NCBI GenBank assembly: GCA_014382695.1
Contig: JACNJF010000136.1
Span: 1 to 38,725 of the forward strand
Direction: 5' to 3'
Source: Gammaproteobacteria bacterium
Lineage (GTDB): Bacteria > Pseudomonadota > Gammaproteobacteria > GCA-001735895
Length of the DNA: 38,725 bases
Part shown: piece after piece, positions 25,694-32,247 of the stretch
Layout of the letters: each line of letters begins with the position of its first letter
Numbering within the stretch: the stretch's first letter is position 1
The notes under the pieces: generated by a model
The model's database searches: none
Told to the model about the DNA's origin: nothing
The model's input: only the letters and a program-made list of their open reading frames with translations
Made by a program: the position numbers and the translations under genes

Positions 25694-25722
25694 TTGACAG
25701 CCTTTACTCTAAACTTTACTGT
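25694..25722 (+). promoter_or_regulatory. Candidate sigma-70 promoter driving the metZ leader
   Basis: TTGACA (25694-25699) and, after 17 nt, TACTGT (25717-25722). The -35 is perfect and the -10 retains only the key T, A and final T. Transcription would start near 25729, about ten nt before the riboswitch, which is the expected geometry. Confidence 0.5.
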
Positions 25723-25738
25723 TTTGAAAATAAGAAGT

Positions 25739-25796
25739 ACGCGCTGATTTGTTTCTCGGCTTGCAGGCGCATTATAAGTATTGCTAAAGAGGGGGG
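25739..25796 (+). promoter_or_regulatory. SAM-II riboswitch in the metZ leader
   Basis: The stretch contains, in order, the conserved parts of the SAM-II aptamer. P1 is GCGCT (25741-25745) with GGCGC (25766-25770). Loop 1 begins GATTT (25746-25750), whose uridines bind SAM and form triples. TTGCA (25761-25765) closes the loop, ATAA is at 25774-25777, and the 3' strand is GCTAAAGAGG (25783-25792). The pseudoknot can form from CTC with GAG, TT with AA and GC with GC. SAM-II elements control methionine genes such as metZ, metX and metA, mostly in alphaproteobacteria. Here the G-rich 3' strand is some 70 nt from the metZ ATG. Identification was by eye against the remembered consensus. Confidence 0.87.
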
Positions 25797-25857
25797 TTAG
25801 GCGCTGACGCCAGACCAGCAGTTTTATCTGCACCCTCCCGAGCTTATTTTTTTGGGG
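25791..25857 (+). promoter_or_regulatory. Probable expression platform between riboswitch and metZ
   Basis: GGGGGGT (25791-25797) can pair with ACCCTCC (25832-25838; one G-U). Inside lie two small hairpins, GGCG-CTGA-CGCC (25800-25811) and GCAG-TTTTAT-CTGC (25818-25831), giving a three-way junction. The C-tract CCCTCCC (25833-25839) can instead pair with GGGG (25854-25857), the metZ ribosome site. The two pairings exclude each other. A 7-T run (25847-25853) follows the stem but only after 8 nt, so an intrinsic terminator is unlikely. Confidence 0.5.
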
Positions 25858-25863
25858 AATATT

Positions 25864-27036
25864 ATGTTAGATGAACTGCTGCACTTTGATACTCTGGCAA
25901 TCCGTACTGGACACCAGCGCACGGCAGAAGGCGAGCATGGGGAACCAATCTTTCCGACCTCCAGTTTTGTATTTAGCTCTGCGGCTGAAGCTGCAGCACG
26001 CTTTTCCGGCGAAAAACCGGGAAATATTTACGCACGTTTTACCAATCCCACGGTTAAGATTTTTGAGCAGCGACTGGCTGCACTGGAAGGGGCCGAAAGC
26101 TGTGTGGCGACCGCATCCGGCATGGCCGCGATACTGTCAGTCTGCCTTGGCCTGCTGCAGGCCGGCGATCACATTGTTTCATCACGCTCCATCTTTGGTA
26201 CCACTTCCATTCTGTTTGATAAGTATCTGGGCAAATTTGGTGTGGCCACCAGCTTTGTCGATCTGACCGATCTGGCGGTTTGGGAGCAGGCGATAAAGCC
26301 GAATACGCGCCTGCTTTTTCTGGAAACGCCGTCTAATCCCTTAACCGAGATTGCCGATATTTCCGCGCTGGCCGATCTGGCGCATGCGCATAACTGCCTG
26401 CTGGTGGTAGATAACTGTTTCTGTACACCAGCCCTGCAGCAACCTTTAAAACTGGGGGCCGATATTATTGTGCATTCTGCCACCAAATACCTGGACGGGC
26501 AGGGACGTATCATCGGAGGCGCCGTAGTGGGCAATCAGGAGCTGGTCGGTAAAGAAGTTTTTGGTGTGATCCGAACCGCAGGCCCCAGTATGAGTCCTTT
26601 TAATGCCTGGATTGCACTCAAAGGCCTGGAGACACTTTCCCTTAGAATGAAGGCGCATAGCCATAGCGCCATGCGGCTGGCGCGCTATCTTGAGCAGCAC
26701 CCTTCGATAGAACAGGTGTTTTATCCTGGTCTGGAGTCGCATCCACAACATCAACTGGCAAAATCACAGCAGAGTGACTTTGGTGGTATCGTCTCGTTCA
26801 AGGTCAAGGGCGGTCGTGAGCAGGCCTGGCGCCTGATCGATCAGACCAGACTGCTGTCGATTACGGCTAATCTGGGCGATACCAAATCAACCATTACCCA
26901 TCCCGCCAGTACCACCCATGGTCGCTTGAGCGATGAGCAGAAGCTGGCCGCCGGAATCAGTGATAACCTGATCCGGGTCGCCGTCGGGCTGGAACATCTG
27001 GACGATATACAGCGCGATATCAGCCGCGGCCTTTAA
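25864..27036 (+). CDS. metZ: O-succinylhomoserine sulfhydrylase
   Basis: A 390-residue PLP enzyme of the Cys/Met metabolism family that makes homocysteine from O-succinylhomoserine and sulfide. The PLP lysine is Lys208 in HSATKYLDGQGR; FPTSSFVF near the start, RFTNPTV, and the GDTKSTITHPAST loop are family features. The sequence GEHGEPIFPTSSFVF and the position after purF are those of proteobacterial metZ rather than metB or metC. GGGGAATATT before the ATG is the ribosome site. A CTG at 25804 is in frame with no intervening stop and could give an extra 20 residues, but the family start favours the ATG. The SAM-II riboswitch upstream implies feedback by SAM. Confidence 0.95.
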   Translation: MLDELLHFDTLAIRTGHQRTAEGEHGEPIFPTSSFVFSSAAEAAARFSGEKPGNIYARFTNPTVKIFEQRLAALEGAESCVATASGMAAILSVCLGLLQAGDHIVSSRSIFGTTSILFDKYLGKFGVATSFVDLTDLAVWEQAIKPNTRLLFLETPSNPLTEIADISALADLAHAHNCLLVVDNCFCTPALQQPLKLGADIIVHSATKYLDGQGRIIGGAVVGNQELVGKEVFGVIRTAGPSMSPFNAWIALKGLETLSLRMKAHSHSAMRLARYLEQHPSIEQVFYPGLESHPQHQLAKSQQSDFGGIVSFKVKGGREQAWRLIDQTRLLSITANLGDTKSTITHPASTTHGRLSDEQKLAAGISDNLIRVAVGLEHLDDIQRDISRGL

Positions 27037-31593: not shown

Positions 31594-31670
31594 CGGGGTG
31601 TAGCGCAGCCTGGTAGCGCAACTGCTTTGGGAGCAGTGGGTCGGGGGTTCGAATCCCTCCTCCCCGACCA
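31594..31670 (+). tRNA. tRNA-Pro (anticodon TGG)
   Basis: A 77-nt cloverleaf with encoded CCA. The acceptor is CGGGGTG with the matching 3' strand, and the T-loop GGTTCGAATCC is canonical. The anticodon stem ACTGC/GCAGT encloses TTTGGGA, so the anticodon TGG is at 31628-31630. Confidence 0.97.
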
Positions 31671-31718
31671 AATTTGAAAGTGAAAAATCGCTGTGACAGG
31701 AAGGTTTGCAGATGATGT

Positions 31719-31763
31719 TTGACCGGCCAGGAAGTTAAGTCTCCAGGTCTTCTTTTCGGTCAA
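31719..31763 (+). other. Hairpin in the tRNA-Pro to tRNA-Arg spacer
   Basis: TTGACCG (31719-31725) pairs with CGGTCAA (31757-31763) around a 31-nt interior, which itself holds GAAG/CTTC. The spacer of 181 nt has no gene. A second hairpin, TCCTAT/ATAGGA, precedes tRNA-Arg (about 31809-31827). They are likely processing structures of the tRNA precursor. Confidence 0.5.
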
Positions 31764-31851
31764 CACAAGTATTCAGCCGTTTCGGTTGTGAGCATGGAGC
31801 TCAAAGTATCCTATTTAACAGATAGGAGCGCACGCGGAAGGTGTAGTTTCT

Positions 31852-31928
31852 GCGCCCGTAGCTCATCAGGATAGAGCATCGGCCTTCTAAGCCGAGGGTA
31901 GCAGGTTCGAATCCTGCCGGGCGCGCCA
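31852..31928 (+). tRNA. tRNA-Arg (anticodon TCT)
   Basis: A 77-nt cloverleaf with encoded CCA. Acceptor GCGCCCG pairs with CGGGCGC, with discriminator G. The anticodon stem TCGGC/GCCGA encloses CTTCTAA, with anticodon TCT at 31886-31888. The T-loop GGTTCGAATCC is canonical. Confidence 0.97.
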
Positions 31929-31935
31929 TTTTTAT

Positions 31936-32012
31936 GGTGGGCGTAGCTCAGTCGGTAGAGTGCAAGATTGTGATTCTTGTTGTCGTGGGTTCGATCCCCA
32001 TCGTCCACCCCA
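31936..32012 (+). tRNA. tRNA-His (anticodon GTG)
   Basis: A cloverleaf with encoded CCA and the extra G(-1) at 31936, opposite discriminator C at 32009, the identity mark of tRNA-His. The anticodon stem CAAGA/TCTTG encloses TTGTGAT; anticodon GTG at 31970-31972. It is 7 nt after tRNA-Arg. Confidence 0.97.
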
Positions 32013-32023
32013 TATTAATAAGG

Positions 32024-32058
32024 CCGGTAAAATATAACATAAAGTATTTACCGGTTTT
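32024..32058 (+). terminator. Terminator-like hairpin after tRNA-His
   Basis: CCGGTAAA (32024-32031) pairs with TTTACCGG (32047-32054) across a 15-nt A+T-rich loop, followed by TTTT. The long loop and short T-run suggest a weak terminator or a processing site. A second tight hairpin, GCCTTC-CTGGT-GAAGGC (32066-32082), stands directly behind it. Confidence 0.5.
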
Positions 32059-32162
32059 AAAATCAGCCTTCCTGGTGAAGGCACCTGACAGTCAGCATAG
32101 TCAGGCAAATCAACTAAATGAAGGCAAGTTTGCTGCTTCAACAACATCTTAAAAAGCCATGT

Positions 32163-32247
<85 letters not shown>

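Follow-up and report, generated by a model that had tools for sequence, protein, structure and literature searches.

The systems closest to the leader described here are the SAM-II riboswitch (SAM_alpha; RF00521), SAM-II with long loops (RF01726; PMC2864571) and SAM-V (PMC6061858). The usual expression platform of SAM-II is a terminator (PMC1273637, PMC6061858). The S. meliloti metZ SAM-II leader ends in a terminator, whereas the SAM-II before metA of the same organism controls translation, the P2 strand GAGG being its Shine-Dalgarno (SD) sequence (PMC9373788). SAM-V is also a translational control and has P3 right after P1, while SAM-II is described as being without P3 (PMC6061858). A survey published in 2014, with about 200 genomes, described SAM-II in alphaproteobacteria, and in betaproteobacteria a 'metXZ' RNA element is known, a pseudoknot before metX/metZ with terminators (PMC4239095); the latter may be SAM-II. 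In gammaproteobacteria SAM-II has been on record since 2007 (PMC2258182, PMC2704228). In the open literature searched, no SAM-II with metZ was found for gammaproteobacteria, the few papers on SAM-II in gammaproteobacteria leaving metZ there untreated.

The window analysed here (38,725 nt; contig JACNJF010000136.1 of the Gammaproteobacteria bacterium assembly GCA_014382695.1, a marine organism) carries before the methionine-synthesis gene metZ an element that shares with SAM-II (RF00521) P1, GAUUU, UUGCA, the GCUAAA core, the H-type pseudoknot, a promoter closely upstream and a metZ/metY target; metZ is also the target in S. meliloti (PMC9373788). It differs in lying under the Rfam cut-off, in the family-specific L1 UUUCUCGG and P2a GGGGG, and in having a predicted RBS hairpin about 60 nt downstream in place of the terminator. 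Unlike that of S. meliloti metA, its SD is a separate downstream site, and whereas the SD of SAM-V is in or beside P2a, that of the window lies 58 nt past the aptamer. The translational control proposed below for the window would be a likeness to SAM-V; at the place of SAM-V P3 (PMC6061858) the window has a 12-nt unpaired linker, whereas leaders of a sister genus have a stem-loop. The latter also resemble SAM-II with long loops in their extra loop sequence, the window being without a long loop.

Features of the metZ leader

25694-25722, plus strand: promoter, -35 TTGACA (25694-25699), 17-nt spacer, -10 TACTGT (25717-25722); 9 of 12 consensus matches
25736-25797, plus strand: SAM-II aptamer; RF00521 34.3 bits over 25731-25808; model R2 61.9 bits, a somewhat circular score
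25741-25745, plus strand: P1 5' strand GCGCU, pairing with 25766-25770; covariation at 5 of 6 P1 pairs in alignment A2
25746-25750, plus strand: L1 GAUUU, predicted by homology to be the third strand of the SAM pocket; near-invariant in 68 leaders
25753-25757, plus strand: P2a 5' strand UUCUC, pseudoknot pairing with 25791-25795
25761-25765, plus strand: UUGCA
25763-25765, plus strand: P2b 5' strand GCA, pairing with UGC at 25782-25784
25766-25770, plus strand: P1 3' strand GGCGC; RF00521 match and covariation in A2
25774-25777, plus strand: AUAA
25783-25792, plus strand: GCUAAAGAGG
25783-25796, plus strand: 3' pseudoknot strand GCUAAAGAGGGGGG; GCUAAAGAGGG invariant in 27 leaders
25833-25842, plus strand: putative switch element CCCUCCCGAG, a conserved block within a linker that varies elsewhere
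25836-25857, plus strand: predicted RBS-sequestering hairpin, UCCCGA (25836-25841) with UUGGGG (25852-25857)
25854-25857, plus strand: Shine-Dalgarno GGGG, 6 nt before the ATG at 25864; relatives have SD-like GGGAG/GGAG
25864-27036, plus strand: metZ, O-succinylhomoserine sulfhydrylase, 390 aa; NF006003 702.8 bits, TIGR01325 581.6 bits

Elsewhere in the window (31594-32244) four tRNA genes are clustered downstream of cysS.

Identity of the aptamer

All of the aptamer parts named in the initial annotation were found at their positions when the sequence was read, among them the pocket core GAUUU, UUGC and GCUAAA, which is near-invariant across 68 leaders. The covariance search with RF00521 matched over the whole model length (34.3 bits, E=2.6e-6 against all Rfam families) and this was the sole match in the 4-Mb genome (E=8e-6). 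The Rfam gathering score of this family is 36 bits, so that the prediction of a score above it failed narrowly, by 1.7 bits; an element under the gathering score is not called at default settings, and annotation would thus miss it. When the region was compared with all of Rfam at E<=1, RF00521 alone matched, with neither RF01726 nor SAM-V found. Model R2, a covariance model made from 68 class leaders, gave 61.9 bits (E=2.9e-15), a value that is somewhat circular because the element of the window is one of the 68 training rows.

The RF00521 cut-off is too strict for the elements of this class, since seven of the eight genomes of the genus gave a match and six of those were above it; in the eighth (G005) metZ is cut by a contig end or start. 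The cut-off is an operational limit and no structural feature. The element of the window possesses all the testable structural features of SAM-II and, judged by its sequence, is a genuine SAM-II riboswitch with predicted ligand binding.

Conservation, promoter and regulated gene

Using model R1 the leader was found in 35 of the 41 family genomes. Alignment A2, which contains 68 class leaders, had 97.5% of its P1 cells paired and two-sided changes at five of the six P1 pairs, and its P2a contained one pair with eight two-sided changes; both P1 and the pseudoknot are conserved in related leaders, the latter as the initial annotation had required. P2b was nearly invariant, and pairs that never vary are uninformative on covariation. 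Within the family P2a and P2b were 93-96% paired. For the whole structure the covariation score was 0.209; shuffles gave 0.102, none of 500 equalling the real value, and slid versions of the structure reached at most 0.086. Sequence and covariation together document that an H-type pseudoknot aptamer with its promoter is conserved before metZ across the family.

The identity of metZ was upheld, both NF006003 and TIGR01325 scoring over their curated cut-offs. The candidate promoter also recurs: of 27 related leaders, 25 have TTGACA followed by a spacer of 17 or 18 nt, and in family leaders the second hexamer generally ends some 9 nt (6-18) upstream of P1. The promoter of the window is missing from the output of a generic sigma-70 scan because its -10 TACTGT matches at 3/6 positions only; since the filter of the scan misses the site, it was judged by conservation. 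The initial annotation had set the element against the MetJ and MetR control of well-known gammaproteobacteria, and a search that detected the E. coli control found no MetJ in any of the 41 genomes of the family. That SAM feeds back on sulfhydrylation may reasonably be supposed.

Expression platform

In most members of the class, GCUUUAGC lies downstream of the aptamer and is complementary to the aptamer 3' strand GCUAAAGC; a GC stem and T-run come after GCUUUAGC, and the platform is a terminator/antiterminator. In the family of the window (27 leaders) this is replaced by the conserved block CCCUCCCGAG, then the SD and start codon. Since the block and the RBS hairpin take the place of the terminator, translational OFF control is inferred, acting some 60 nt past the aptamer. 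CCCUCCCGAG is complementary to the P2 3' strand (GAGGG), to the L1 strand (CUCGG) and to the SD region. We consider it fairly probable that this SAM-II riboswitch would turn metZ off at high SAM by masking the SD. SAM would close P2 (UUCUC with GGGGG), leaving CCCUCCCGAG free to form the hairpin that masks the SD, through UCCCGA/UUGGGG in the window and CUCCCGA/UUGGGAG or GAGUUUUUC/GAGAAACUC in relatives, and translation of metZ would stop. Without SAM, both P2 strands would pair with CCCUCCCGAG (GAGGG/CCCUC and CUCGG/CCGAG) and the ribosome site would be freed. What appears less usual here is that the switch would block the ribosome rather than transcription.

In the family the upstream complement of the RBS region beats shuffles (mean Z 1.79; 13/27 at p<=0.05) and has 7 two-sided compensatory cells. 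It takes two forms, CUCCCGA:UUGGGAG and GAGUUUUUC:GAGAAACUC, and compensatory changes occur in the latter. Constrained folding of the window with the aptamer held folded raised the expected anti-SD:SD pairs from 1.6 to 6.6 and lowered the unpaired probability of the SD from 0.30 to 0.08; over the 27 leaders, free and bound folding gave no significant difference in SD accessibility (p=0.09). The platform's complement to the L1 strand is mildly above shuffles in the family (mean Z 1.32), and pairing of the platform with the P2 3' strand, being no better than shuffles there (mean Z -0.35), was rejected. The complementarity of CCCUCCCGAG to both P2 strands, not clearly above chance per sequence, suggests how the SAM-free state might free the SD. 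A class-wide rule by which both P2 strands swap to the platform was likewise rejected, because across the class the complement to the L1 strand hardly exceeds shuffles (mean Z 0.52, 15/129). In genome G003 (L009/L225) a MITE-like insertion of about 300 bp with long terminal inverted repeats (TTAGGGCCTGTTAACACTAATTG...) lies between the platform block and metZ.

Distribution in the class

The survey covered 369 genomes drawn evenly across the GTDB class, which takes in the former betaproteobacteria. RF00521 gave matches in 117 of these, of which 87 missed the cut-off and only 30 were over it; R2 found the element in 181 of the 369 genomes and 131 of 271 genera. Among 142 class elements examined, the downstream gene was metZ-like in 97 cases and metK in 14 (111 together), the others including tandem leaders, a few wrong-strand reads and contig ends. 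Members before metZ include those of tubeworm symbionts (L025, L038, L051), Sedimenticola (L041) and a Chromatiales MAG (L074). R2 found the element in 43 of 60 genomes from the order to which one metX-associated member (G258) belongs, where it stands before metZ, metX and apparent metH starts (metX / metH-like starts: L279, L294, L301; L289, L297, L299).

Genome G281 has ten SAM-II matches by R2, of which RF00521 lists five. Tandem leaders, composed of SAM-II, a terminator and a second SAM-II/SAM-V-like aptamer, were seen in L006, L013, L015, L105, L114, L195, L200, L217, L219 and L222; that of L015 precedes a metK-like gene.

Alternative explanations

The same SAM-II riboswitch might act through transcription termination, as most do, with GGGGGGU (25791-25797) pairing with ACCCUCC (25832-25838), or UCCCGA with UUGGGG, and a T-run near 25847-25853. 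A terminator is the common SAM-II platform (PMC1273637, PMC6061858), other class members show strong pairing of the antiterminator type for the aptamer 3' strand (mean Z 2.04, 76/129), and the window has a T-run of seven and one terminator-like site listed by the scan. In that listed stem, however, the T-run occupies the loop and first arm instead of lying 3' of the stem, and a stem built on the P2 3' strand would be expected when SAM is absent, which is the wrong direction. The seven U that follow the platform block are not conserved: congeners with the same element are without this T-run, and a terminator in the window was rejected for this reason. Termination is thus unlikely, though it deserves more weight than the two explanations that follow, and masking of the SD is preferred.

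That the aptamer is a chance resemblance with no function could be argued from its score under the gathering cut-off, but the genome-wide E-value of 8e-6, the right gene, strand and distance, and the retention of the element with covariation in 35 of 41 relatives make this hardly credible. The initial annotation had regarded SAM-II as unusual for gammaproteobacteria and had suggested horizontal gain of the control element. Recent gain from alphaproteobacteria would agree with the description of SAM-II in that group and with its occurrence in gammaproteobacteria first being thought sporadic, for which transfer was suggested (PMC2258182). However, 181/369 class genomes and 35/41 family genomes carry the element, mostly before metZ, and its L1 and platform sequences are family-specific. 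The absence of the element from genus g2 fits loss equally well; there (L231, L239) metZ without a SAM-II leader directly follows another coding frame, which points to loss or rearrangement within the family. As the element is widespread (131/271 genera included) and was reported earlier (PMC2258182, PMC2704228), neither 'unusual for the class' nor horizontal gain is supported, and recent gain is very improbable.

An additional hairpin in the sister genus

Fourteen metZ leaders of the sister genus g3 matched neither RF00521 nor the rest of Rfam (E<=1); their membership of RF01726 or SAM-V was rejected on this ground. The element is the same in these leaders, except that an extra, variable hairpin separates P1 from AUAAAUUUGCUAAAG. 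This hairpin shows two-sided changes at 7/7 pairs, and the inserts have a mean folding z-score of -2.0. In the leaders concerned (L229-L252), which Rfam does not detect, SAM-II is thus joined to a covarying hairpin sited where SAM-V has P3. Other members of the class also carry such inserts at this site, upstream of metZ and of metN-looking genes; in L267, L268, L277, L278 and L281 the gene is metN-like (methionine ABC transporter ATPase), a naming based on N-terminal sequence only.

It is conceivable, if somewhat short of an even chance, that the family stands between SAM-II and SAM-V as a lineage, its SAM-II aptamer having exchanged transcription termination for a separate downstream RBS hairpin and, in g3, acquired a covarying P3-like hairpin after P1 that hides the leader from Rfam. 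If so, SAM-II and SAM-V would grade into each other.

Significance

The element of the window is a copy of the known SAM-II class whose platform, as modelled here, is probably translational, and the wider family merits attention over this single copy. The leader set could reveal a shift of the SAM-II platform from transcriptional to translational, as well as the origin of the SAM-V-like P3. Most gammaproteobacterial members fall under the SAM-II cut-off of Rfam, which 30/369 genomes pass, against 181/369 found by the class-specific model. Since so many genomes carry the element, methionine control in MetJ-less gammaproteobacteria may be largely riboswitch-based.
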